Shown here piece after piece: positions 23,604 to 37,385 of a stretch of 42,684 bases of DNA; within the stretch, counting starts at the first letter, position 1, and the number at the start of each line of letters is the position of its first letter. The notes beneath the pieces are model-generated. The model was not told where the DNA came from and searched no databases. It worked only from the letters and a program-made list of their open reading frames with translations. The stretch is taken from NCBI GenBank assembly GCA_018063505.1, contig JAGPBF010000008.1, positions 1-42,684 on the forward strand, in the 5' to 3' direction. Position numbers and translations under genes: made by a program. This DNA comes from Rhodoferax sp. (lineage in GTDB: Bacteria; Pseudomonadota; Gammaproteobacteria; Burkholderiales; Burkholderiaceae_C).

Positions 23604-24896
23604 TCAACGCATCAATGACGGCAACCACAGGCTGAGCTGCGGAAACGCAATCAGCAGCACCAGCATCAGCACCATGCTGAGCACGAACGGCCAGCATCCG
23701 CGAAAGATCGTCAGCAGCCCGACGTCGGGCAGCAATGCGTTGAGCACGAACAGATTCATGCCCACCGGTGGCGATATCAGGCCGATCTGCACAACCATGA
23801 CGATCAGCACGCCGAACCAGATCGGGTCGAAGCCCAGCGACAACACGATCGGGAAAAACAGCGGGATGGTCAGCAGAACCATGGTCAGTTCCTCCATCAC
23901 CGTGCCCAGCAGCACGTAGATCAGCATCATCGCCCCGATCACCATCGGGGGCGACAGACCCAGTTGCGTGATCCAGTTGCGCAGGTCGCCGGGCATGCTG
24001 GTGTAGTTCACGAAGTTCGCGAATATCGACGCCGAGATCAGCAATGCGAACAACATCGCCGTCGTTCGGGCCGACTCGATCAGCAGGTCACGCAGCATCA
24101 CCCAGCTCAGGCGCCGACGTGCCAGCGCAAACAGGAACGCCCCGGCCGCGCCGAAGCCGGCACCTTCGGTGGCGGTGAACACGCCGCCGTAGATTCCGCC
24201 CAGCACCACGACCACCAGCAGCGCCACACCCCAGATTCTGCGCACCGCCCGCAGGCGCTGCGCCCATCCCACGCGCGGCGCCGCGGGTGCCAGCGCCGGA
24301 TTGCGCCAGGCCATGAACCAGGCGGTGGCCATCATCATCAACGCCGACAGAAGCCCCGGAATCACGCCGGCGGCAAACAACTTGCCGATATGGGTTTCGG
24401 TGATGATGCCGTAGATCACCATGATCGTGGACGGCGGGATCATGATGCCCAGCGTGCCGCCGGCCGCCATCGCGCCGCTCGAGAGCACGTCGCTGTATCC
24501 GAGCCGGCGCATCGACGGATAGGCGACCTTGCCCATGGTCGCAGCGGTGGCCAGCGAGGAGCCGCAGATGGCGCCGAAACCGGCGCTGGCGGCAATCGTG
24601 GCATGCGCGAGCCCACCGCGCACATGGCCCAGGAACGCCTGGGCGGCGTCGAACAATTCGTGCGCCAGCCCGGAGCGGGCGACGAAATTACCCATCAGGA
24701 TGAACAACGGAATCACCGACAGCGTGTAGGCAAAGCCGGTTTCGTGGACCACTTGCGCCGCACTCACCAGGGCGGGCGTCCAACCGCGGACCGACGCCAT
24801 CCCGCCCAGTCCGACCAGCCCCATGGCGAACGCCAGCGGCACACGCAGCAGCGCCAGCAGGAATATCGCGGCGAATCCCGACAAGGCGGCGGTCAC
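23604..24896 (-). CDS. TRAP transporter large permease subunit (DctM-type)
   Basis: A 430-residue membrane protein with many hydrophobic segments. It carries the DctM signatures VIPLFILMGNFVARSGLAHE near residue 65 and GTLGIMIPPSTIMVIYGI. It is the channel-forming subunit of a sodium-driven TRAP importer. The start is a GTG at 24896 that overlaps the TGA of the small permease (GTGA, 24893-24896), showing translational coupling. The upstream in-frame ATG at 24980 would lie within the small-permease gene and add a non-membrane sequence. It is the last gene of the minus-strand catabolic run. Confidence 0.9.
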   Translation of the reverse strand: MTAALSGFAAIFLLALLRVPLAFAMGLVGLGGMASVRGWTPALVSAAQVVHETGFAYTLSVIPLFILMGNFVARSGLAHELFDAAQAFLGHVRGGLAHATIAASAGFGAICGSSLATAATMGKVAYPSMRRLGYSDVLSSGAMAAGGTLGIMIPPSTIMVIYGIITETHIGKLFAAGVIPGLLSALMMMATAWFMAWRNPALAPAAPRVGWAQRLRAVRRIWGVALLVVVVLGGIYGGVFTATEGAGFGAAGAFLFALARRRLSWVMLRDLLIESARTTAMLFALLISASIFANFVNYTSMPGDLRNWITQLGLSPPMVIGAMMLIYVLLGTVMEELTMVLLTIPLFFPIVLSLGFDPIWFGVLIVMVVQIGLISPPVGMNLFVLNALLPDVGLLTIFRGCWPFVLSMVLMLVLLIAFPQLSLWLPSLMR

Positions 24897-25381
24897 AACG
24901 CGTTGACCTCGGACGTACCGGCCACTGCGCCGGGCGCCTGAAACACCGCCAGCAGATGCACCACCGCAGTGGCGCCACACAGGGCCGCCATGCCGTAGAT
25001 GAACGGCGCCTTGAGAATATGCAACTGGGCCGTCGTCTCGCCGCTGTCCAGAAATTCATTCCCGGTGCGCCACATCAGCAGCGCCAGTCCGGCGAGCGCC
25101 AGCCCGCAGACAACATCGACCAGCGCCAGATGCCAGCGCCGCCAGAGTGCCGGCACATAGGCGTCGAGCGAATCGAAAACCACGTGCTCACGGCGCTGCG
25201 ATACCAGCGGCAACGCGGCAAAGATGACCACCACCATCAGCAACTCGGTCAGCTCCAGCGAACCGGGGATGGAATGGGAGAACAACCTGCGCCCCAGCAC
25301 GTCCAGGAAGGTCAGCGCCATGATCATGAAAAGCGCGCACGCGCACAGATAGCCGCAAAGGCTCATACTCAACCGCTGCAT
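24893..25381 (-). CDS. TRAP transporter small permease subunit (DctQ-type)
   Basis: A 162-residue protein with four hydrophobic segments, typical of DctQ. The first contains ALTFLDVLGRRLFSHSIPGS, the hallmark of the family, and the second follows ELLMVVVIFAALPLVS. It forms the membrane part of the TRAP importer together with the large subunit. It follows the binding-protein gene after 107 bp that contain a GC hairpin. Confidence 0.9.
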   Translation of the reverse strand: MQRLSMSLCGYLCACALFMIMALTFLDVLGRRLFSHSIPGSLELTELLMVVVIFAALPLVSQRREHVVFDSLDAYVPALWRRWHLALVDVVCGLALAGLALLMWRTGNEFLDSGETTAQLHILKAPFIYGMAALCGATAVVHLLAVFQAPGAVAGTSEVNAL

Positions 25382-25407
25382 GGAATGGATCTCGAGATGA
25401 ACAAGGG

Positions 25408-25430
25408 CCGGCAGGCAATGGCGCTGCCGG
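25408..25430 (-). terminator. GC hairpin between TRAP binding-protein and permease genes
   Basis: CCGGCAG and CTGCCGG form a perfect 7-bp stem with a 9-base loop in the gap after the solute-binding gene. There is no T-run. Such hairpins between TRAP P and QM genes are plausible attenuators or 3' stabilisers that keep the binding protein more abundant than the permease. Confidence 0.4.
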
Positions 25431-25488
25431 AAGGACCCGCGATGGCCCCGCCAGCGGACAAACCGCGGCGGGCGCCGGCGCGCACCGC

Positions 25489-26508
25489 TCAGTTGGACGC
25501 GCGTGCGATTTCGGACCGGAACTCGGTCAGCACAGAGGCGGCATTGGGCAGGCCCTTGGCCTGTGCGTCCTGAACCCAGCGTTGCTCGAGCGGCCCGACA
25601 CCGGCCTTGACCGCAGCCACGAACGCCGCGTCGGCCTTGTCCACCACAACCCCGTCGGTACGCAGCAGCGCCATGCCGCGCGCATCGACCTTGTCCCAGG
25701 CACGACCGAAGATGCGGGCCGCCTTCTCCCCCGAGATGGCATCGATGGCAAGCTTGTCGGCCGCACTGAGCGCGTCGTATCGCGCCTGGTTCATCAGGAA
25801 CACGAAGCTGGTGTTGTACAGCCCGCCGGAGAACGTGGTCGCGTACTTCACGACCTTGCTCAGCTTGAACGATTCGGCAGACTCGGCCGGAAACAGCGTG
25901 CCGTCCATGACGCCGGTGGACAGCAGTTCGTACGATTCGGTGCCGGCCTTGAGGGTGGCATTCATGCCCAGGCTGCGTGCGATCTCGTTGACCATGCCGC
26001 CACCGACCCGGAACTTGAGGCCCGACAGGTCGCTGATCTGGCGGATCGGACGCTTGGAATTCATCACCATGCCGGGTCCGTGCGTGAACATCGCGATCAC
26101 CTTCGTTCCCTGGTGCTCGGCCGCGAATTGCGGATGTTGCCGCGCGACCTTGTCAAAGGCGACCGAGATCGGCTCGGCCCTGTCGCCCAGGAATGCGAAC
26201 TCCGCCATCTGGGTATACAGGAAACGCCCGGGTGTGTATCCGTGCACGGTGAAGGATATGTCCGCCAGGCCGTTCTTGACCGCATCGAAGGTTCCCGGTG
26301 GCGACGCCACGCCACGCGGCAACAGATTGCATGCCAGCCGCCCGCCGGTCTGGCTGGCCAGCAGGTCGCACCACTCCTTCTGGGCCATGCTCAGTGCATG
26401 GGTCGGCGGCACCCAGCTCGACGCGGTGAACACCGTCTGGGCGGACGCGGCAACGCCGGCCGCCAGCATCCAGGCCGTCAGGCCCGCCCGAACACACTTG
26501 TTGATCAT
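25489..26508 (-). CDS. TRAP transporter substrate-binding protein (DctP-type)
   Basis: A 339-residue periplasmic protein. The signal peptide is predicted to be cut after AAGVAASA before QTVFTASSWVPPTH. The DctP fold follows, with LKFRVGGGMVNEIARSLG and the GVMDGTLFPAESAESFKL segment that binds carboxylate ligands. An AAGGAGA site supports the ATG at 26508 rather than 26538. It begins 19 bp after the reductase stop, so the importer is probably part of the oxygenase operon and may take up its aromatic acid substrate. Confidence 0.92.
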   Translation of the reverse strand: MINKCVRAGLTAWMLAAGVAASAQTVFTASSWVPPTHALSMAQKEWCDLLASQTGGRLACNLLPRGVASPPGTFDAVKNGLADISFTVHGYTPGRFLYTQMAEFAFLGDRAEPISVAFDKVARQHPQFAAEHQGTKVIAMFTHGPGMVMNSKRPIRQISDLSGLKFRVGGGMVNEIARSLGMNATLKAGTESYELLSTGVMDGTLFPAESAESFKLSKVVKYATTFSGGLYNTSFVFLMNQARYDALSAADKLAIDAISGEKAARIFGRAWDKVDARGMALLRTDGVVVDKADAAFVAAVKAGVGPLEQRWVQDAQAKGLPNAASVLTEFRSEIARASN

Positions 26509-26527
26509 GTTGTCTCCTTCGCGGTAG

Positions 26528-27481
26528 TTAAAGGTCAAGAGTCAGACGCGGCGTCTTGGCGCGCGACACGCACACCATCATGGTGTTTCTGGATGCGCGC
26601 TCGGCGGGCGCGATCACGTAGTCGTGGTGATCCGGCTCACCGGCGCAGACGCCGGTCTCGCAGGTCCCGCAAAGTCCTTCGCGGCAGGAATACGGGATCT
26701 CGTGGCCATGGGCCTCCAGCACTTCGAGCACGCTCTGGTTCGGCGGAACGAACAAGGCGGACCCGCTGCGGTGCAGGTCGATCCAGAATCCCTCGGTGTC
26801 AACGGTCTCGGCCGGGCTGGCGCTGAACCATTCGAAGTGGGCGATGTTCGCGGGCAAGTCCCGGCAGGCCAGCCCCACGGCGTCCATCAGCGCTGCCGGC
26901 CCGCAGCAATAGACCTGCTCCCCTGGCATCCTGCCGGACAGCAACGCTGCCACGTCCAGCGGGCCGCCGCTTTCCCGGTCGCCATGCAGATGCACGTCGC
27001 CATCGAGCGCACACAGCTCTTCGCAGAAGGCCATCCGCTGCAGGCTGCGCGCTGCATATACCAGCCGCCAGGGCTTGTGCCCGGCGGCGCACCAGCGCGC
27101 CATCGCCACCAGCGGCGTGATGCCGATGCCGCCACCAATCAGCAGGTAGGAGGACGCATCGGGGTCGAGCCGGAAATTGTTCACCGGTGATCGGCAGTCC
27201 CAGCGCATGCCCACGCGTGCCTGCTCGTGGACGAAGTTCGATCCGCCCCGACCGGCGCGCGATCGCCCGACGCCAAGCACATATCGATGGCGTTCACGCC
27301 AGTCGTTGACCAGCGAATACTGGCGGCGCATGCCATTGGGCAACGTAACCTCCAGGTGGGCTCCGGGCTCGAATGCCGGCAATTCGCCCCCGGCCGGATC
27401 GACCAGCTCGATGCGCAGGACGTCCAGCGCCTCGGCGCCGATGGCGGCCACTTCCAGCGCAAGCGTTCGGGACGGTGTCAT
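26528..27481 (-). CDS. Oxygenase reductase: FMN/NAD(H) domain plus C-terminal plant-type 2Fe-2S
   Basis: A 317-residue reductase of the phthalate dioxygenase reductase/VanB type. The flavin-binding domain (RQYSLVND, 53-60) is followed by the NAD domain (LLIGGGIGITPLVAMAR, 113-129, and YCCGPAALMDAV). The C-terminal ferredoxin has cysteines 266, 271, 274 and 304 (CREGLCGTC and a distant Cys). It passes electrons from NAD(P)H to the Rieske oxygenase encoded 61 bp upstream. The start at 27481 is the first ATG giving the usual family N-terminus. Substrate specificity lies with the oxygenase. Confidence 0.92.
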   Translation of the reverse strand: MTPSRTLALEVAAIGAEALDVLRIELVDPAGGELPAFEPGAHLEVTLPNGMRRQYSLVNDWRERHRYVLGVGRSRAGRGGSNFVHEQARVGMRWDCRSPVNNFRLDPDASSYLLIGGGIGITPLVAMARWCAAGHKPWRLVYAARSLQRMAFCEELCALDGDVHLHGDRESGGPLDVAALLSGRMPGEQVYCCGPAALMDAVGLACRDLPANIAHFEWFSASPAETVDTEGFWIDLHRSGSALFVPPNQSVLEVLEAHGHEIPYSCREGLCGTCETGVCAGEPDHHDYVIAPAERASRNTMMVCVSRAKTPRLTLDL

Positions 27482-27542: not shown

Positions 27543-28643
27543 TCATGCACCGGTGGCGTTGGCCAGGCCAGGCATCGGTTTTCGCACGCCCGCCCCGGAG
27601 GCGGCGACCTCGCGCTCGCGTTCCTGCCGGATCAGCTTGTCCAGTGTCCAGCGAAAGTGCGACAGCGGCGCGTCCGCCGCCACCGCCAGCATCTGGAAGT
27701 CGGGGTCCTCGTCATGCAGCGTCTGCTGTGCCTCGATGATGTGCTTGTCTTCCATGAAGCCTTCGATCAGGCTTTGCTGCAACGAGCGCGAGATGTTGTG
27801 GTCATCGCCCTCGAAGTTGTTCAGGTAGTTCCAGAAGAAGTGGGTGGTGCTGCGGGTCTCGGGCGTCATGAACTGGCAATTGCGGTACTCGCGGGCTCCC
27901 TCCAGGTTGCCCTTCTCGGCGCCCGCGCCGGCAGGCGCGAAAAGCGACTCCAGAAAGAAGACCCCCGGTATGTGCATATGCCCGATGTTGCGTCGATCGA
28001 CATTGCGCTGCGGGTCCGCAATCACCTTGCGGTGGAACGGCGGCGGCGGCGCATTCATGTGCCAGCGCTCGACGCGAAAACCGCGCTCGAGCCGCTCCAT
28101 CGACACCGGCTTGGTGGTGTATGCATACTCCTCCGAGCCACCCAGCGTGTGGGTGTGGACGAAGGCCAGGTGGGCAAAGTCACTCAGGTTGTCGACGATC
28201 AGCAGGTAGTTCGCCTTGTAGTGCAGATAGTCCGGGATTCCCTTCCATTGCGGGTCGCGCAGGAACGGGTAGTCCAGGATCTGATCGGGATCGGCCAGCG
28301 CGGCGTCGCCCATCCAGATCCACACCAGGTGGTCGCGCACGACCACCGGGTAGCTGCGCACGCCGAGCCTGGCCGGCACCATCTCCTGCCCGGGAATCTG
28401 CACGCACTTGCCGGTGGCGTCGAATTTGAGCCCGTGGTACATGCAGCGAATGCAGTCACCCTCGCGCCGGCCCAGGTGCAGCGGTACGCCACGATGGCAG
28501 CACCGGTCCGCCAGCGCCACCACCTGGCCGCTGTCGCCCTTGTACAGCAACACCCGTTGCTCGAGCAGGGTGCGGGCCAGCAGACGTCCGTCGATCAGCT
28601 CGTGGTCCCAGGCTGCAACGTACCAGCAATTCTTCAAGAACAT
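27543..28643 (-). CDS. Rieske non-heme iron oxygenase, alpha subunit (VanA-like)
   Basis: A 366-residue aromatic oxygenase. The Rieske cluster ligands are Cys48-Cys-His50 and Cys67-Met-Tyr-His70. The mononuclear iron site is in DNLSDFAHLAFVH, with Asp155 bridging and His158 and His163 as ligands. The opening MFLKNCWYVAAWDHEL is typical of the vanillate O-demethylase (VanA)/TsaM branch rather than phthalate 4,5-dioxygenase. O-demethylation or another mono-oxygenation of a benzoate is therefore likelier than ring dihydroxylation. The second ATG (28643) is used: AAGGA is 6 bp away, against 0 bp for the ATG at 28649. The partner reductase follows. Confidence 0.9.
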   Translation of the reverse strand: MFLKNCWYVAAWDHELIDGRLLARTLLEQRVLLYKGDSGQVVALADRCCHRGVPLHLGRREGDCIRCMYHGLKFDATGKCVQIPGQEMVPARLGVRSYPVVVRDHLVWIWMGDAALADPDQILDYPFLRDPQWKGIPDYLHYKANYLLIVDNLSDFAHLAFVHTHTLGGSEEYAYTTKPVSMERLERGFRVERWHMNAPPPPFHRKVIADPQRNVDRRNIGHMHIPGVFFLESLFAPAGAGAEKGNLEGAREYRNCQFMTPETRSTTHFFWNYLNNFEGDDHNISRSLQQSLIEGFMEDKHIIEAQQTLHDEDPDFQMLAVAADAPLSHFRWTLDKLIRQEREREVAASGAGVRKPMPGLANATGA

Positions 28644-28649
28644 GGTCAT

Positions 28650-28727: not shown

Positions 28728-28800
28728 TCGGCTGACGCAGACATACTGTTCGCATATCCGGACAATGCCGCTGCCACAACGCTTGCGGCGATCAATCGGC
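28722..28800. repeat. 11-bp direct repeat GATCAATCGGC
   Basis: Two identical copies, 28722-28732 and 28790-28800, lie 68 bp apart centre to centre. The second overlaps the end of the Bug receptor gene. They may be regulator half sites; chance is not excluded. Confidence 0.35.
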
Positions 28801-29796
28801 CCGGATCTGCTTCTCGCGCACGATGGCTCCATAACGTGCGCTGTCATCGAGCATCTGGGCGGTGAACTGCGCCAGCGACAGGGCCGAGGGTTCGGCACCG
28901 ATTGCGGCAATCTGCCGGCGGACCTCCGGCAGAAGCAATGCGCGGTTGACCTGCGCGTGCATCCGCTCCACGATCGGTGCCGGTGTCCCGTGTGGCGCGT
29001 ACAGGCCATGCGTGGTGCCTGCATCGAACCCGGCCAGCCCGGCCTCCTGCAGCGTCGGAATCTGCGGAAACAACGAAGACCGCTGCGCCGCGGCCACGGC
29101 CAGCATGCGCAGCCTTGCGCTTCTGACATGGCCCAGCGCGATACCCGGATCGAACAGGAAATCGATCTGCCCCGCCAGCAGGCTTTGCAGCGCGGGCGAC
29201 GCGCCGCGAAACGGCACGTGCAGCGCCGACACACCGGCCTGGCTCTTGAACATCTCGCCGGCCAGGTGCAGACCGGTACCGTTGCCGGCCGATCCATAGG
29301 ACAGGCGGGACGGGTTGTCCTTCAGATAGGCAAGGAACTCCGCGATGTTGGCCACCGGCAGGTCCGGTCGCACGACCAGAAACAGCACGATCCGAGCCAC
29401 CGCGGCGACGGGCATCAGATCATGCTCCACGTCGAACGGCATCCTGGCGTAGATGAACGGATTGGTCGTGATCGTGCTACCGGCCGTCATCAGCCAGGTG
29501 TATCCGTCGGCCGGTGCCTTGGCCACCAGGTCTGCGCCGATCATGCCGCTGGCGCCGGCCCGATTGTCGACCAGCACGGAAGCGCCCAGCGCCTGCTGCA
29601 GCGGCAGGTTCAGCGCACGGGCCAGCACGTCGGGCGAACTGCCTGGCGGGAAGTTCACCACCATGCGCAGCGGCCGCGCTGGCCACGCAGGCGGCGACTC
29701 GGCCGACCGGACCGACGGCCATCGGCCGGCGAGTGTTCCTGCCAGGCCGAGCTGCAGCAAGCGCCTGCGGGCCAACAGGGGATGAACTGGATGCAT
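28792..29796 (-). CDS. Bug-family tripartite tricarboxylate transporter receptor (orphan)
   Basis: A 334-residue periplasmic receptor. A twin-arginine-like N-terminus (RRRLLQLGLAGTLAG) is followed by the Bug fold: PARPLRMVVNFPPGSSPDVL, then NRAGASGMIGADLVAKAPADG and the SYGSAGNGTGLHLAGEMF ligand loop. No TctA/TctB permease genes are nearby, so it may dock to a distant permease or act as a sensor. AAAGGAAA precedes the ATG at 29796. It starts 11 bp after the pobA-like stop and so belongs to the ligAB operon, suggesting an aromatic acid or ring-cleavage product as ligand. Confidence 0.9.
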   Translation of the reverse strand: MHPVHPLLARRRLLQLGLAGTLAGRWPSVRSAESPPAWPARPLRMVVNFPPGSSPDVLARALNLPLQQALGASVLVDNRAGASGMIGADLVAKAPADGYTWLMTAGSTITTNPFIYARMPFDVEHDLMPVAAVARIVLFLVVRPDLPVANIAEFLAYLKDNPSRLSYGSAGNGTGLHLAGEMFKSQAGVSALHVPFRGASPALQSLLAGQIDFLFDPGIALGHVRSARLRMLAVAAAQRSSLFPQIPTLQEAGLAGFDAGTTHGLYAPHGTPAPIVERMHAQVNRALLLPEVRRQIAAIGAEPSALSLAQFTAQMLDDSARYGAIVREKQIRAD

Positions 29797-29807: not shown

Positions 29808-30986
29808 TCAGGCCTGGATCGGCAGGCCGGTGAAGTTTTCGGAAAAATGCCGGCGACCGGTGTCGGTTCCGGTCATGGCAATCAGATCTGCGCGCCGCAG
29901 ACGCTGCGCGAACGAACTCTCCTGCGGGAACCGGTGTGCCATCGCACACAGGCCGGCGGCGAAACGGTGGACCTGCCACATGCGGCTCATGCAGGTGCGC
30001 GTGTAGGCCTGCAGCGCGGCACCGTCAGCGTCGCGGTGATATGCGGTCAGCGCGGCGGCCAGCACCTTCACGTCGGCCATGGCGGAATTGAGTCCCTTGG
30101 CGCCGGTCGGCGGGACAATATGGGCCGCATCGCCGGCCAGGTACAGACGGCCGCGCTGCATCGGCTCGCATTGGTAGCTGCGCATGGCCGTGACACCCTT
30201 CTGGAGGATCTGGCCTTCCCGGATCGGTGGCATGCCCGGCACGTCCAGCCGCCGATGCAAGGCTTCCCAGATGCGAGCGTCCGGCCAGTCGTGCGGATTC
30301 TCGTCCGGCCGGCATTGCAGATACAGGCGCGTGACTTCGGGCGTGCGAATGCTCAGCATGGCAAAGCCCTCGTCGTGACAGCCCCAGGTGATCTCGTTGG
30401 TCGGCGCCTGCGCCTGGGCCAGAATGCCGAGCCAGCCGAACGGATAGACGCATTCATGGATCTGCAGCGTCGCCGGGTCCAGCGCGGTGCGGCTGATCCC
30501 GTGAAAACCGTCGCAGCCCGCGACATGGTCACATTCCAGTGTGCCGGCAACCCCGCCATGCGTGAAGTGCACCACCGGATGCTTGCCATCGAGGCCTTCC
30601 AGACAGGTCACCGGCGCCTCATACAGGATCGGCGCGCCGCCCCGCGCATGCAAGCCCATCAGATCCGACACCACCTCATACTGCGGATAGACCCAGACGC
30701 TGCGGCCACCGGAGGCGGCATGGAAGTCGAGCCGGTGCGACAAGCCGTCAAAGCGGAAGTCGAGCACCCTTTGCTCGATACCGCGTTGCGCGATTGCCCC
30801 GCCCAGCCCCAGTTCGCGCAGCATCTCGACCGACCCCTGCTCCAGCACACCGGCACGCTGGCGTGCGCGCACGTGTTCACTCGGCGCACGCTCGAGAACC
30901 ACCGACGCGATGCCGGCCCGGTGCAGCAGACAGGACAGCAGCAGCCCTGCCGGACCGGCGCCGATGATTGCGACCTGGGTCCGCAT
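29808..30986 (-). CDS. pobA: 4-Hydroxybenzoate 3-monooxygenase family flavoprotein with altered proton relay
   Basis: A 392-residue flavin hydroxylase collinear over its whole length with classical PobA. The FAD motif GAGPAG is at 9-14, R42/R44 are in [10 protein letters not shown], the second FAD motif is [16 protein letters not shown] (285-300, including P293), and S212, R214 and Y222 of the substrate carboxylate site are present. However, the residues that deprotonate the substrate phenol are replaced: Trp at 201, Phe at 385 and Gln at 72, instead of Tyr, Tyr and His. The family call is firm but the 4-hydroxybenzoate substrate is doubtful. The ATG overlaps the ligB stop by one base (TGATG). 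Confidence 0.85.
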
Positions 30987-31825
30987 CAGGGCTGCTCCTC
31001 GAAAGTGATCAGACCCATGCCGGTGGTCATCGGCGCGTAGTAGTTGCGGTGGATGCATCGCACCTGCTGCGACAGCGCACCACGCATGACCAGCCACATG
31101 ATCAACTCGATGCCCTCCACACCAAATCGCTCCATCCAGGTCCGATGGTTCCATTCGGTCAGGCTGAGCGGGTCCTCTTCGATGCGGCGCAGGAAGTCGA
31201 GGTCGTTGTCCGGATGCATCTGGCCGAAGTTCACCCCCGTGAGCTGGTGCGACATGCCGCCGGTGCCGATCACCACCACGCGCAGGTCGCGCGGATACGC
31301 CTGAACCGCCCGGCGGATCGCCTGGCCCAGCCGCAAGCAGCGGCGGGCGGTCGGCAGCGGGTGTTGCAACACGTTGACCGCGACCGGGACGGCCGCCAGC
31401 GGCCAATGGTCGGACGGCTCGAAGCAAAGGTGCATCGGCACCAGAAAGCCATGCTCGACGCGCATCTTCTGGCACACAGCGATGTCGAACTCGTCATCGA
31501 CCAGCGAACGGCACAGGTGCTGCGAGAACGCCAGATCGCCGGGAACGGCTGGCAGCGGCCGCTGGCCGAAACCCTCGTCGGCGATCGGATACTGGTCCGC
31601 GCAGCCGACCGCGAAGGTCGGATACTTGTCGAAGAAGAAGTCCGCTCCATGGTCGTTGTAGACCATCACCACGATATCCGGACGCTGCGCCTGCAACCAG
31701 GCGCGGACCGGCACATATGCGTCAAACAGCGGCTTCCAGGCCGGTGTCCCGGTCTTGCCGCGGTCGTAGGCGCCGCCAATCGACGGCACATGCGATGTGC
31801 CGATTCCCGCCACGATGCGCGCCAT
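30986..31825 (-). CDS. ligB: Protocatechuate 4,5-dioxygenase family beta subunit (LigB)
   Basis: A 279-residue class III extradiol dioxygenase catalytic subunit. The Fe(II) ligands are conserved: His12 (GTSHVPSIG), His59 (VYNDHGADF) and Glu240 ([10 protein letters not shown]). The catalytic base region TGGMSHQL (His193) is present. It cleaves a catechol-type ring meta to the hydroxyls, using the LigA subunit as lid. The upstream ligA stop and this ATG overlap as TGATG at 31823-31827, as does the next junction, giving a tightly coupled ligA-ligB-pobA unit. Whether the ring is protocatechuate or a 5-substituted analogue such as gallate is open. Confidence 0.92.
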
Positions 31826-32187
31826 CAGGTCGCCCCCGGTTCGTTGCGGGTGGCCAGAAACTGGTCCAGGCTTTCCCCGCGCATCCGCGCGCCCATCTGG
31901 TACAGCCCATGGCCGGTGACCACGCCCAGCTTGATCAGGAAGTAGATGTTGGCGCCGGCTTCCAGCAATCCGGCGAAGTCGCGCTCGCGCACCAGGCGGG
32001 ATTCGTCCGGGTTCAGTGCGAAGCGTGCCAGGAAGGCCTCTTCATCGGCCCGGAACGACGCACGCCCGGCCATGTCCGACAGCGCGTTGCACAGGGTATT
32101 GATGCGCAGGCCGCGCCAGGACACGGCGAGATCGAATACATCCGAGCCCGCAATGCGCGCGCCCGGTTCAAGTTGCATGACGGTCAT
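31825..32187 (-). CDS. ligA: Protocatechuate 4,5-dioxygenase family alpha subunit (LigA)
   Basis: A 120-residue small subunit, mostly helical, that covers the LigB active site. Conserved blocks are RGLRINTLCNAL, FRADEEAFLARFALNP and LEAGANIYFLIKLGVVTG. It is about 20 residues shorter than Sphingobium LigA. Aligning GKSF of that protein with GHGL here places Leu95 at the position of Phe103, a residue that contacts the substrate near C5. AGGAGA lies 5 bp before the ATG at 32187, ruling out the longer upstream frame. It is first in the operon, divergent from marR. Confidence 0.9.
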   Translation of the reverse strand: MTVMQLEPGARIAGSDVFDLAVSWRGLRINTLCNALSDMAGRASFRADEEAFLARFALNPDESRLVRERDFAGLLEAGANIYFLIKLGVVTGHGLYQMGARMRGESLDQFLATRNEPGAT

Positions 32188-32290: not shown

Positions 32291-32827
32291 ATGTCCTTTG
32301 CCGCTCCTGCCACGGTCGAAGATCTGCTCAACTACCGGCTCAACCGGCTGCTGGCCAGCAGCGGCGCGATGGTCACGCGTCTGTGCGAGGGACGTTATGG
32401 CATCACGCGGCGCGAGTGGCGGATGATCTGCCTGCTGGCAACGCGCGGTCCGATGTCGCCGTCCGAACTGGCCGAATATGCGCATCTGGAGCGCGCCCGG
32501 GTGTCGCACCACGTGGCGGGGTTGTTGCGCAAGGGCCTGGTCGTGCGGCTGCCACATGAAACCGACCGGCGCCGCGCCCGCATCGAACTGCACCCAAGCG
32601 GCCATGCGCTGCATGCGGAACTGTTTCCCCAGTCGGTGGCGTTCAACAACCAGATCCTGCAATCGCTCGAGGCCGGACAACGTGCACTGCTGGACCAGCT
32701 GCTGACCCAGCTCACGCAAGCGGCAGAGGCGCTCTGCCACTCCAGGCCGGTCGAGCACAAGGCCGATCGCAGGCGTGGCGGCAGTCGCAGGGTGGTGACC
32801 AGCGCGGCACCGGCCCGGCTCTGGTGA
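32291..32827 (+). CDS. MarR family transcriptional regulator
   Basis: A 178-residue winged-helix regulator. The MarR core covers about residues 10-150: LLNYRLNRLLASSGAMVTRL, then ITRREWRMICLLATRGPMSP, the recognition helix in LERARVSHHVAGLLRKGLV, and the wing LPHETDRRRARIELHPSG. The last ~30 residues are a basic Arg/Lys-rich tail not typical of the family. The ATG at 32291 starts the conserved fold. It is divergent from ligA and presumably represses the lig operon until an aromatic ligand binds. Confidence 0.9.
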   Translation: MSFAAPATVEDLLNYRLNRLLASSGAMVTRLCEGRYGITRREWRMICLLATRGPMSPSELAEYAHLERARVSHHVAGLLRKGLVVRLPHETDRRRARIELHPSGHALHAELFPQSVAFNNQILQSLEAGQRALLDQLLTQLTQAAEALCHSRPVEHKADRRRGGSRRVVTSAAPARLW

Positions 32828-33620: not shown

Positions 33621-34580
33621 CTACAGACCGCGCAGAAACCCCAGCAACAATTCGTTGACCTGCGCCGCCCGCTCCCGCTGTATCCAGTGGCCCGCCCCTT
33701 CGAGGATGTGGCAGCCACGCAGGCCCGGCAAGGTGGTGCTGAAACGGTCGATCTGCGATGCTGATGCCGGGAAGCGCAACACACCGTCGCGTTCGCCGGC
33801 GATGAACATCGACGGCTGGCGGATCACGGCGCCACGCCACGGCGCCAGCAGCTCGGAGTTCAGGCGCAGGCAGCGGTACCAGTTGAGCCCGCCGCGAAAA
33901 CCCGCGCGGTCGAACTCGCCGGCGTAATAGGCGACATCATCCGCATCCATCCATGCAGGCAACACCTCGGGGTCGATGGTGTTGGCCAGAAATCCGGCAC
34001 CCGGCGCCAGCATGCCGAAGCTGGCCTGGCCCGGCGCATCACCCGACCCGCTGAAGTGGATGCGCCGGATCGACGCTGCCACATCGCGCTCGAACTCGGC
34101 TTCGGCCACGCCCGGAGCCTGGAAATACTGCATGTAGAAGTTCTGCACGCCCTGCTTCTCCAGCGCGCTGATCAGGTCGACCTTCCATGGCGGCGCATAC
34201 GGCACGCTCATGCCGACGACCGCACTAAACAGGTCCGGCCGCATCAGCGCAGCATGCCAGGCCACCGGCGCACCCCAGTCGTGGCCGACCAGCACCGCCT
34301 GCTTCTCGCCCAGCGCCTTGAGCAGGCCGACCATGTCGCCGACCAGGTGCAGCAGCGTGTAGTGGCGGGCATCCTGCGGCGCGTCGGTGCCGCCGTAACC
34401 ACGCATGTCCGGCGCCACGGCGCGGTAACCGGCCGCCGCCACCGCGGCCATCTGGTGCCGCCACGAATACCAGCTCTCGGGCCAGCCGTGGCAGAACAGC
34501 ACCAGCGGTCCGCTGCCCATGCTGGCCACCCGCATGCGGATGTCGTCGAGTTGCAAGGTGTCGAATGGCGCTTCGGTCAT
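33621..34580 (-). CDS. Alpha/beta hydrolase, epoxide-hydrolase type
   Basis: A 319-residue alpha/beta hydrolase. The oxyanion motif HGWPE is at 31-35, the nucleophile is Asp101 in GHDWGAPV, an acid is near 265 in GERDGV, and the His is His298 in GAGHWIQRE. Tyrosines in the cap near 149 and 235 could be the ring-opening acids. An Asp nucleophile with HGWPE is typical of soluble epoxide hydrolases (or dehalogenase relatives). It converges with the DUF3750 gene. The substrate is unknown; the nearby catabolic genes hint at a xenobiotic or plant metabolite. Confidence 0.88.
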   Translation of the reverse strand: MTEAPFDTLQLDDIRMRVASMGSGPLVLFCHGWPESWYSWRHQMAAVAAAGYRAVAPDMRGYGGTDAPQDARHYTLLHLVGDMVGLLKALGEKQAVLVGHDWGAPVAWHAALMRPDLFSAVVGMSVPYAPPWKVDLISALEKQGVQNFYMQYFQAPGVAEAEFERDVAASIRRIHFSGSGDAPGQASFGMLAPGAGFLANTIDPEVLPAWMDADDVAYYAGEFDRAGFRGGLNWYRCLRLNSELLAPWRGAVIRQPSMFIAGERDGVLRFPASASQIDRFSTTLPGLRGCHILEGAGHWIQRERAAQVNELLLGFLRGL

Positions 34581-34704: not shown

Positions 34705-35622
34705 TCATGCAAACACACCTTGCGCCCACGACGGGTCGGTGAGGTGGTCGATCCACCAGCGCAAGGCCCGGCCGGTCTCCCCGGCGCGCCAGGCCACGGT
34801 GCTCTGGCTGGGCGGAAGCGGTGTCTCCGCCTGCAGCAGGACCAGTCGGCCCGCATCGACATGGGGCTGGGCCATGCCCCTGGGCAGAAAGCCGCAGCCG
34901 ATGCCCTGCAGGATGGCTTCGAGCTTGGCGCCATGGTCGGGCATCGACAACTGCAGGGAGTTGTCGAGCAGGCCATACGACAGGTGCGGCAGGCTGCGCG
35001 TGGTGTCGCCGAGCACGACGGCACGGTACTGCGCGATCTCGGCGTTGCTGATGCTGCCACTGCGACCGGCCAGCGGATGGTCGGGCGGCGCCGCCAGCAC
35101 GAACTCCAGTTGCCACAGCGGCGCGCACTCGAAGCCACCACCGGCCGGGCCGCCCGCGGGTGCACCCACCACCAGATCGGCGCGACCGGACATCAGCGCG
35201 TCCCAGGAGCCGGCCACCGCCTCGCGCCGCACCTGCACCGAAGTCTGCGGCGCGGCTTCGAAGAACGCCCGCAGCAAGGGCACCATCGGTTTCATCGGGA
35301 TCACCTCGTCGAGCGAGAGCACCAGCAGCGGCTCCCAGCCGGTGGCGATCAGCTGCACGTGCGCATCGAACGCGGCTGCGCGCTCCATCAGCGGCCGGCC
35401 GCTGTCGAGCAGGCTGCGGCCCTTGGTGGTGAAGCGCGCGCTGCGACCCGAGCGGTCGAACAGGGTCAGGCCCAGGTTCTCCTCGAGGTTGCGCACGGCA
35501 TGGGTGATGGAAGAGGTCACCACGCACAACTCCTGCGCAGCGGCGGCGAACGAACCATGGCGGTCGATGGCGTCGAGCAGACGCAGGCTTTCGAGTGATA
35601 CGCGTTGGTGTCGTCTAGTCAT
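34705..35622 (-). CDS. LysR family transcriptional regulator
   Basis: A 305-residue LTTR. The helix-turn-helix covers SLESLRLLDAIDRHGSFAAA and continues AAQELCVVTSSITHAVRNLE. The effector domain starts about residue 90 (LLVLSLDEVIP), and GGFLPRGMAQPHV-like text (here GCGFLPRGMAQPHV) is near its end. The ATG at 35622 gives the standard N-terminus. It is divergent from the MhpA-like gene across 116 bp that contain a TCCAA-N9-TTGGA dyad, so it is the probable regulator of that gene set. Confidence 0.9.
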   Translation of the reverse strand: MTRRHQRVSLESLRLLDAIDRHGSFAAAAQELCVVTSSITHAVRNLEENLGLTLFDRSGRSARFTTKGRSLLDSGRPLMERAAAFDAHVQLIATGWEPLLVLSLDEVIPMKPMVPLLRAFFEAAPQTSVQVRREAVAGSWDALMSGRADLVVGAPAGGPAGGGFECAPLWQLEFVLAAPPDHPLAGRSGSISNAEIAQYRAVVLGDTTRSLPHLSYGLLDNSLQLSMPDHGAKLEAILQGIGCGFLPRGMAQPHVDAGRLVLLQAETPLPPSQSTVAWRAGETGRALRWWIDHLTDPSWAQGVFA

Positions 35623-35646
35623 CGTTCGATCCCATGCAACGGGGCT

Positions 35647-35665
35647 TCCAAAATCATTCATTGGA
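35647..35665. promoter_or_regulatory. Candidate LysR-type operator
   Basis: TCCAA (35647-35651) and TTGGA (35661-35665) form a perfect dyad with a 9-bp AT-rich spacer (a T-N-A type site) midway in the divergent gap between the LysR gene and the MhpA-like gene. Confidence 0.4.
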
Positions 35666-35738
35666 CCTGCGTCAAACCCGTGGATAAGCTCGTGTCCGCA
35701 TCGATCGACCACTACGGAAAAGCGCCTGGCCAAGCTCC

Positions 35739-37385
35739 ATGAATCATGACACCGCCATCTCCCGGCCGACAGGCGATAGTACCCAATCGACGCGTTCCAC
35801 CTTGCGCCGGCACTTTGATGTTGCCGTCATCGGTTACGGACCCGTCGGCGCCACGCTGGCCGGCCTGCTGGGACGCGCCGGCCTGACGGTCGGCGTGTTC
35901 GACAAGGCCGGCGCGATCTATCCGCAGCCACGCGCCGTCGGGTTCGACCATGACGCCATGCGCCTGTTCCAGCGCATGGGCGCGGCGCAGGCACTCGCGC
36001 CGCATATCGCCGATTTCCGCGACTCCTGCTACTACGGGGCCGACGGCCAGCTGATACGCAAGGTGGCCCGGCTCCCGCCGCCGTTTCCATTGCATTGGGC
36101 ACCCAACTACACCTGCGACCAGCCCGCAGTGGAGGCGGTATTGCGCGCGACGGTCGATGCCATGCCGGCGGTGGAAGTGCACCTGGACAGTTGCCTGACC
36201 GGGTTGCAAGACGATGGCCAGGGTGTTCGTTTTGCGGTTCGCGAGGCGCCGGCGCAGAGCACCCAACACTACAGTGCGGCTTATCTGGTAGGTTGCGACG
36301 GTGCGTCGAGCACGGTGCGGCGCAGCATCCGCGCCGAGCTTGCCAGCATGGCGTACGACGAACCCTGGATCGTGGTCGACCTGCACGTGGACCCGGCCTA
36401 CCTCGATCAGTTGCCACAGACGAATGTGCAATATTGCGAACCCCAGCGCCCATCGACCTACATCGTCTGCCCGGGCAATCACCGGCGCTGGGAATTCATG
36501 GTGCTCGACGGCGAACCGCGCGAGGGGGAGCTGAGCGAGCAAAGGTTGTGGGCCTTGCTGCAGCGTTGGGTCGACCCTGCCCATGCGCGGATCTGGCGTG
36601 CGGCCGCCTACCGTTTCCATGCGCTGGTGGCGCGGCAATGGGATTCGGGACGGGTGTTCCTGGCCGGCGACAGCGCCCACCAGACACCGCCTTTTCTGGG
36701 CCAGGGCATGTGCCAGGGGTTGCGCGACGCCGGCAACCTGGCGTGGAAGCTGGCCATGGTGGTCCAGGGCCGCGCCGATACGCGCCTGCTGCAGACTTAT
36801 ACCGAGGAACGTCGCCCCCATGTGCAAGCGACGACGCTGCTGGCCAAGGAAATCGGCTACCTGTTGTCCGAGCGCGACCCCTTGCGGGCCCGCGCGCGCG
36901 ATGCGCGGCTGCTCGAGGAAGGCGGCGGCAGTGCACGCACGCTGATCCGCCAGGAGATGATCCCCGGCATCACCCACGGGCTGATCGCGGCCGATGCCCC
37001 ATTGGCCGGTGTGACCCTCCCACAACCGCGGGTCCGAAACGCCGACGGCCGCAACTGCCTGCTCGACGATCTGCATGAACCCGTCTTCCAGATCCTGGCA
37101 AGCCGCCGTGCCGACATACCGGGATTGCGCGAACTCGCGCAAGCCGCTGGCGTGGCGCTTGTAGTCGTGTGCAATGGCAGCGGCGCGGCCGGTGACGACC
37201 CTCCGGAGTCGGTATCCGATCTCGATGGCCTGTTGCTGCCATGGTTCGAAGCCCATGGCGTTCAAGGCGTTCTGGCGCGGCCTGACCACTATGTCTATGG
37301 CGGTTTCACGGACCTTGCCGGCGCCAGAAGCCTGCTGCACATGTTGGAGAACACCCGGGTGCGCTGCACCCCGGCACTCGCATGA
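35739..37385 (+). CDS. FAD-dependent aromatic hydroxylase, MhpA-like (3-(3-hydroxyphenyl)propionate hydroxylase family)
   Basis: A 548-residue flavin monooxygenase. After a ~26-residue N-terminal tail comes the FAD motif DVAVIGYGPVGATLAGLLGR, then the DG motif (VGCDGASSTVRRSI) and the second FAD motif GDSAHQTPPFLGQGMCQGLR followed by DAGNLAWKL. This order and text match MhpA/PheA-type hydroxylases with a C-terminal thioredoxin-like domain. The family ortho-hydroxylates phenylpropanoids or phenols using NADH and oxygen. No mhpB/C/D/E genes follow, so the product is not processed by the usual mhp route here. It is first of the plus-strand set. Confidence 0.88.
   Translation: MNHDTAISRPTGDSTQSTRSTLRRHFDVAVIGYGPVGATLAGLLGRAGLTVGVFDKAGAIYPQPRAVGFDHDAMRLFQRMGAAQALAPHIADFRDSCYYGADGQLIRKVARLPPPFPLHWAPNYTCDQPAVEAVLRATVDAMPAVEVHLDSCLTGLQDDGQGVRFAVREAPAQSTQHYSAAYLVGCDGASSTVRRSIRAELASMAYDEPWIVVDLHVDPAYLDQLPQTNVQYCEPQRPSTYIVCPGNHRRWEFMVLDGEPREGELSEQRLWALLQRWVDPAHARIWRAAAYRFHALVARQWDSGRVFLAGDSAHQTPPFLGQGMCQGLRDAGNLAWKLAMVVQGRADTRLLQTYTEERRPHVQATTLLAKEIGYLLSERDPLRARARDARLLEEGGGSARTLIRQEMIPGITHGLIAADAPLAGVTLPQPRVRNADGRNCLLDDLHEPVFQILASRRADIPGLRELAQAAGVALVVVCNGSGAAGDDPPESVSDLDGLLLPWFEAHGVQGVLARPDHYVYGGFTDLAGARSLLHMLENTRVRCTPALA

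Follow-up and report, generated by a model that had tools for sequence, protein, structure and literature searches.

A PobA Homologue without the Classical Proton Relay and Its Linkage to a LigAB-Type Dioxygenase: A Candidate Protocatechuate-to-Gallate Shunt

Active Site and Relatives of the Hydroxylase

PobA of Pseudomonas (EC 1.14.13.2) has a proton relay that consists of Tyr201, Tyr385, and His72. A gene on the minus strand of a 42,684-nt stretch of Rhodoferax sp. DNA (29808..30986, with the ATG at 30986 and the stop codon ending at 29808; the whole stretch is referred to as the window) encodes a 392-aa PobA homologue in which this relay is absent, and the question is which substrate the protein acts on and in which pathway. 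A preliminary description had claimed that the protein aligns to Pseudomonas PobA without indels, that the three relay residues are replaced by Trp201, Phe385, and Gln72, and that Ser212, Arg214, Tyr222, Pro293, Arg42, and Arg44 are retained, and these claims hold. In a phmmer alignment residues 1–391 of Pseudomonas PobA match residues 1–391 of the window protein without a gap, and PobA residue numbers, thus, apply to the latter. Gln72 (CAA, 30771–30773), Trp201 (TGG, 30384–30386), and Phe385 (TTC, 29832–29834) were read from the codons in addition to the alignment, and the codons of the six retained residues were read as well. Further changes relative to PobA in the active-site region are Tyr38 to His, Leu199 to Ile, Asn203 to Cys, Leu210 to Met, and Thr347 to Cys, and residue 75 is Leu.

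The automatic name 4-hydroxybenzoate 3-monooxygenase had been suspected to be misleading, and the domain models agree: the protein scores 408.9 bits against TIGR02360, the NCBI equivalog model for true PobA, which is below the cut-off of 538.7, and passes NF006091 (486.7 vs. a cut-off of 351), a broad subfamily model that confers the same product name. The best matches among solved structures are those of XaPobA (8JQO/8JQP/8JQQ, 543 bits), compared with 361 bits for the best Pseudomonas PobA entry, and the window hydroxylase is 62% identical to XaPobA (8JQO) and 44% identical to Pseudomonas PobA. A phylogenetic tree of 45 PobA proteins places all seven with Trp201, XaPobA and the window protein included, on a single branch (support 99/99), arguing that the set of Trp201, Phe385, and Gln72 did not arise by chance. 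The other 38 proteins all have Tyr201, 36 of them together with Tyr385 and two (from genomes G175 and G137) with Phe385. The window hydroxylase also falls within the Trp201 clade of XaPobA in a further tree (97/99).

XaPobA from Xylophilus ampelinus, OtPobA, and PkPobA are natural protocatechuate (PCA) 5-hydroxylases of clade F that produce gallate, and this clade is marked by Val199, Trp201, Met210, and Phe385 (Katsuki et al. 2023, PMC10770758). All three enzymes oxidize NADPH more quickly with PCA than with 4-hydroxybenzoate; the kcat/Km values for PCA and 4-hydroxybenzoate, respectively, are 4.9 and 0.11 for XaPobA and 3.7 and 0.34 for PkPobA, whereas those of OtPobA are about equal (7.6 and 8.2) (PMC10770758). 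The activity of XaPobA on p-aminobenzoate and on o- and m-hydroxybenzoate is undetectable, its W201Y variant has a higher activity on both PCA and 4-hydroxybenzoate, and its Cys347 frees the Thr294-Gly295 loop (PMC10770758). Ile199 is present in nine of 37 clade F proteins, the enzymes assayed in that study carry Val199 and none of them Ile199, and the substrate of some clade F proteins is called unknown, as is the physiological role of the PCA 5-hydroxylase, for which an antioxidant function is suggested (PMC10770758). The main text of that paper contains none of the terms gene cluster, operon, and dioxygenase (PMC10770758), and in the open-access literature we found no operon or catabolic role for the clade F hydroxylase and no further bacterial paper on the class.

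The window hydroxylase has the residues of clade F, that is, Trp201, Met210, Phe385, Ile as the Val or Ile at position 199, and Cys347. It shares Trp201, Met210, Phe385, Ser212, Arg214, Tyr222, and Pro293 with XaPobA, OtPobA, and PkPobA, and Cys347 with XaPobA in addition, but differs from XaPobA in having Gln72 and Leu75 instead of the pocket-bottom pair Met72 and Ile75, and Ile199 instead of Val199. With Pseudomonas PobA it has the FAD-binding family and the carboxylate-binding residues in common, whereas the relay that the Pseudomonas enzyme keeps is replaced. Based on these comparisons, the window hydroxylase is most likely a member of an enzyme class that has been in print since 2023, and by analogy with the assayed enzymes we consider it highly probable that it converts PCA to gallate. 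The change of substrate that was originally predicted, thus, finds a match in the measured activities of XaPobA, OtPobA, and PkPobA as far as PCA and gallate are concerned; the other substrate proposed, a benzoate that lacks a para phenol, is disfavored because p-aminobenzoate and o- and m-hydroxybenzoate give no detectable activity with XaPobA (PMC10770758).

Distribution of the Clade and Its Linkage to ligA-ligB

Members of the Trp201 clade were collected from 15 genomes, namely that of the window, five more from a sample of 399 genomes of its family, and nine more from 60 genomes of the genus g249. The family sample encodes the hydroxylase at E ≤ 1e-120 in six genomes, the window genome included, and g249 in 10 of the 60 genomes. 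Within the genus of the window two of seven genomes (the other being G477) hold a clade hydroxylase; one of seven does so in the genus of G641, which added none to the set. Matches at E ≤ 1e-90 turned up in 55 of 399 genomes sampled from the order, but identity exceeded 56% only in the window genome itself, and of the 30 matches that were taken as loci only the window protein has Trp201. A scan of a contig collection gave six loci, one of which belongs to the Trp201 clade, and a search of a plasmid collection gave no close copy (best match 48%).

Met210, Cys347, and Phe385 are present in all 15 clade genomes and Trp201 in 14; the exception, Arg, comes from G842, whose assembly is rich in frameshifts and listed at 63% completeness. 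Residue 72 is Gln in 14 genomes and Met in one, which argues that the Met72/Ile75 pair characterizes XaPobA and not the clade. At position 199, 12 genomes have Ile and three have Val, and the two forms are interspersed on the tree, arguing that the swap is a minor one. The crystallized XaPobA, with Met72 and Val199, is the rarer form among these 15 genomes; the hydroxylase of G765 is 98% identical to it.

The two Phe385 proteins with Tyr201 come from another family (G175, loci L009/L061; G137, loci L010/L062) and form the sister group of the Trp201 clade (joint branch 100/100 in the 45-protein tree). They have His38, Cys203, Met210, Cys347, Phe385, and Val199 as in the clade, together with Val72 and Gly47, and at position 201 the W201Y variant of XaPobA resembles them. 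They may represent an evolutionary intermediate in which Phe385 and Cys347 preceded Trp201. In the 20 kb examined, their loci contain no ligAB match; tctC adjoins the PobA-like gene, and ten neighboring ORFs that were searched included those for a CoA-transferase, a short-chain dehydrogenase (SDR), an enoyl-CoA hydratase, an HpcH aldolase, and a methyltransferase, which suggest no clear pathway.

The genes around the window hydroxylase are arranged on the minus strand in the order ligA, ligB, hydroxylase, tctC, vanA, vanB, and TRAP genes. The alpha subunit of the LigA type (31825..32187; PF07746, 87 bits) probably starts at the ATG at 32187, as judged from homologues, and is followed by the beta subunit of a class III extradiol dioxygenase of the LigB type (30986..31825; PF02900, 206 bits). 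The stop codon of ligA and the start codon of ligB overlap by one base (TGATG), as do the stop codon of ligB and the start codon of the hydroxylase gene, and the gene for a periplasmic substrate-binding protein of the TctC type (28792..29796; PF03401) starts 11 bases downstream of the hydroxylase gene. Farther downstream are genes for a VanA-type Rieske oxygenase (27543..28649; PF19112 and PF00355), which is predicted to be O-demethylase-like and has the dicamba O-demethylase DdmC as its best PDB match, and for its VanB-type ferredoxin reductase partner (26528..27481; PF00111 and PF00175; start inferred). The ORFs with the outer limits 23604..26538, which we take from their translations to encode the binding protein and the small and large membrane subunits of a TRAP-type transporter, complete the series. 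A gene for a MarR-family regulator (32291..32827, plus strand; PF12802 and PF01047; start inferred from the G477 homologue) is divergent from ligA. G477 encodes an 86% identical homologue of the window VanA in the same place and has the same order of TRAP genes.

A second FAD-binding aromatic hydroxylase, which is MhpA-like (NF004829, 479 bits), is encoded at 35739–37385 on the plus strand of the window; the ORFs that follow on this strand to about 39356 presumably encode a TctC-like protein and then a short-chain-dehydrogenase-like protein, and the stretch from 35739 to about 39356 is possibly another cluster for aromatic degradation. Between the two aromatic clusters, on the minus strand, are genes that, judging by their translations, we assume to encode a LysR-type regulator (34705–35733) and an alpha/beta hydrolase similar to epoxide hydrolases (33621–34580).

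The preliminary description had asked whether the three replacements co-occur in a clade linked to ligAB, and they do: ligA-ligB is directly upstream of the clade hydroxylase in 14 of the 15 genomes, a count that includes the frameshifted G842, G798 with LigB in two pieces, and G501, in which the hydroxylase gene is cut by the contig end and continues on another contig. In the fifteenth genome, G794, the hydroxylase gene and its own tctC are on contig C5, and contig C1 carries the same type of LigB (76%) within a ligA-ligB-vanA-like-tctC unit that has no hydroxylase (L142, 1139–3831). The vanA-like Rieske oxygenase of this unit, which looks like a split version of the hydroxylase unit, is 37% identical to the window VanA. 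A gene for a substrate-binding protein follows the hydroxylase gene in all 15 loci (13 TctC, two of the ABC type). G765 has the gene order ligA-ligB-hydroxylase-tctC, and as its hydroxylase is 98% identical to XaPobA, the latter would seem to come from such a unit too.

The hydroxylase and the linked LigB type also co-occur across genomes. In the six genomes of the family sample with the hydroxylase, and in no others, LigB reaches at least 75% identity to the linked type, and the next best match is at 52% (equal-size draw). In g249 this LigB type was found in nine of the hydroxylase genomes (once in two pieces) and, only as frameshifted pieces, in G842; the remaining 50 genomes gave a best match of 50% and, thus, no LigB of this type. 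These counts are not independent events because adjacent genes are inherited together; G794, in which the genes are apart yet both are retained, is the most telling case. Among the stretches screened for neighbors of the vanAB type, of which that of G501 is short and those of g249, except G489 and G794, have only 1.5 kb flanks, such genes accompany the hydroxylase in the window and G477 alone. With no match in the examined stretches of G641, G489, and G765 (those of G501 being too short), we rejected vanAB as a necessary part of the unit. A counterpart of the pairing in which neither enzyme is changed is found at L042 (2010–5303), a Sphingomonadales contig where a canonical ligA-ligB with Phe103 is followed, after about 0.9 kb, by a classical pobA with Tyr201 and Tyr385.

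The Linked Dioxygenase and the Classical Paralogues

We refer to the dioxygenase encoded next to the hydroxylase as LigA'B'. In a tree of 28 LigB sequences, which drew a program warning about long branches in other parts of the tree, the canonical PmdB/LigB and DesB types are separate from the linked LigB proteins of the first six genomes, which make up a clade of their own (100/99). At the position of Phe103 of LigA, LigA of the linked type has Leu in all 15 genomes, whereas the canonical PmdA of the same genomes has Phe103 in the 13 in which it was found, and DesB-type proteins have Asn there along with a glutamate at the position of DesB Glu377. Residue 103 of LigA is reported to govern specificity by way of the substrate's C5 group; mutants at this position showed enhanced dioxygenation of gallate and 3-O-methylgallate, and F103V, F103T, F103L, and F103H are active (PMC10094722).

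LigA'B' resembles LigAB and PmdAB in having separate alpha and beta subunits of the same Pfam families, but reading it as plain PmdAB was rejected, since Leu replaces Phe103 and the window LigB, with 43–46% identity to the canonical PmdB of g249, belongs to another clade. Reading it as plain DesB, the gallate dioxygenase of Sphingobium SYK-6, was rejected as well. Both are class III extradiol enzymes, and a C-terminal stretch RG.[ST]...F..TRN is common to DesB and the linked LigA; DesB, however, is one fused chain with Glu377 and with Asn at the 103 position, where the linked LigA has Ile or Leu and Leu, respectively, and the linked LigB falls outside the DesB type in the tree. In DesB, Glu377 is tied to strict gallate specificity, and LigAB is said to have Phe at the corresponding position (PMC3962378). 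Our sequence alignment instead pairs LigA Phe103 with DesB Asn387 and DesB Glu377 with LigA Ser93, and the match of positions between LigA and DesB is, therefore, uncertain. Leu103 by itself is not proof of gallate cleavage because it is also present in a LigA from Roseomonas that lacks an annotated PobA-type gene within 6 kb, and without the glutamate of DesB, LigA'B' may retain cleavage of PCA. Taking the sequence evidence together, we infer that the linked LigAB most likely cleaves gallate. A third type of LigAB, with Val or Met at LigA position 103 and a motif like GILGLDVQDLGA, is encoded at L102, L118, L123, and L143–L147 in several genomes of the family, and these genomes also hold canonical PmdAB and the linked type.

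All 15 genomes encode an additional classical PobA with His72, Tyr201, and Tyr385, so that 4-hydroxybenzoate does not require the clade hydroxylase. Thirteen of them, namely the first six and seven of eight others queried, also yielded canonical pmdAB with Phe103; it was found neither in G819 nor, at E ≤ 1e-70, in the frameshift-rich G842. The pmd cluster of the window genome, on contig C79, encodes a LigC-like protein, PmdB, PmdA, a LigI-like amidohydrolase, LigK, and a LigJ-like amidohydrolase. LigK scores 401 bits against TIGR02798 (cut-off 304.5), and the names LigC, LigI, and LigJ, for which no equivalog model scored above its cut-off, are our assumption from gene order and family. Cleavage of gallate would feed 4-oxalomesaconate into the last steps of the pmd pathway.

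A Candidate Protocatechuate-to-Gallate Shunt

We consider it probable, including the physiological role, that the unit provides a shunt from PCA through gallate to ring cleavage. In this shunt the product of the window gene would be an FAD- and NADPH-dependent PCA 5-hydroxylase that, by analogy with XaPobA, holds the carboxylate of its substrate by Ser212, Arg214, and Tyr222 as in PobA and has a hydrophobic pocket formed by Trp201, Phe385, Met210, and Ile199 instead of a tyrosine proton relay. The pocket is proposed to seat PCA with C5 towards the flavin, and gallate would thus be made. The hydroxylase gene being the third in the tightly packed unit ligA-ligB-hydroxylase-tctC, its product would act together with LigA'B', a PCA 4,5-dioxygenase relative in which Leu replaces the C5-sensing Phe103 and which would open the gallate ring to 4-oxalomesaconate. 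The shunt would, thus, join the PCA 4,5-cleavage pathway below LigC and LigI, with LigK and a LigJ-like hydratase supplied by the separate pmd cluster, and in the window genome and G477 the vanAB-type genes may supply PCA from methoxylated benzoates. Each of the two enzymes would be shifted by one hydroxyl group relative to its paralogue in the same cell. The predicted activities are to be read with the differences at Ile199, Gln72, and Leu75 from the assayed Val199 enzymes, the dual use of substrates by OtPobA, and the missing DesB glutamate in mind.

The unit could instead duplicate the classical route under other control, with a broad PobA that converts 4-hydroxybenzoate to PCA and forms some gallate, and with LigA'B' as an ordinary PCA 4,5-dioxygenase. 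The similar efficiency of OtPobA on both substrates (PMC10770758), the canonical neighborhood of L042, and the absence of the DesB glutamate would all fit such a duplicate, but XaPobA and PkPobA prefer PCA (PMC10770758), and classical PobA and, in 13 of 15 genomes, canonical pmdAB are already there; moreover, the partners in L042 are both classical, whereas those of the Trp201 clade are both changed, and we regard the duplicate route as unlikely. That the commonest sampled form, with Ile199 and Gln72, acts on another 4-hydroxy-3-substituted benzoate, for example as a vanillate 5-hydroxylase rather than a PCA hydroxylase, with the resulting 3-O-methylgallate cleaved by the Leu103 LigA'B', appears quite improbable, although several observations agree with it. 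Vanillate was apparently not assayed by Katsuki et al., as the strings vanill and syring are absent from their main text, and they describe some Ile199 forms as having an unknown substrate (PMC10770758), LigA residue-103 mutants are also better on 3-O-methylgallate (PMC10094722), and a VanA-type gene is located downstream in the window and G477 and adjoins ligA'B' in G794. The bulkier Ile199, however, should leave less room in the pocket than Val199, the two forms are interspersed on the tree, and vanAB would rather convert vanillate to PCA. If a vanillate 5-hydroxylase were nevertheless true, guaiacyl lignin monomers would be degraded by adding a hydroxyl group and not by first removing the methyl group.

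Gallate could be the antioxidant end product of the PCA 5-hydroxylase, as suggested in the discussion of Katsuki et al. (PMC10770758), with ligAB a neighbor unrelated to gallate. This is very improbable given that the hydroxylase gene overlaps that of a ring-cleavage dioxygenase by one base in an arrangement seen in 14 of 15 genomes, and that a gallate-cleaving partner would remove the product. The loss of the proton relay of Pseudomonas PobA might also point to an unproductive or decayed enzyme; with an intact open frame, the carboxylate-binding residues kept, and a conserved clade that includes active characterized members, decay is hardly credible and was rejected.

What is new here is the near-constant linkage of the clade F hydroxylase to ligA-ligB, the enzyme class itself being known (Katsuki et al. 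2023, PMC10770758). For the Trp201 clade the automatic name 4-hydroxybenzoate 3-monooxygenase is misleading. Tyr385 of PobA and Phe103 of LigA are positions that have been altered in laboratories to push both enzymes towards gallate chemistry, and both partners of the unit are naturally changed at these positions. The gene linkage suggests a role in the catabolism of plant-derived aromatics instead of an antioxidant role. If the proposed reading is true, these bacteria would have a PCA-to-gallate shunt beside the normal 4,5-cleavage pathway within one cell, and the unit would offer a matched enzyme pair for the production or removal of gallate.
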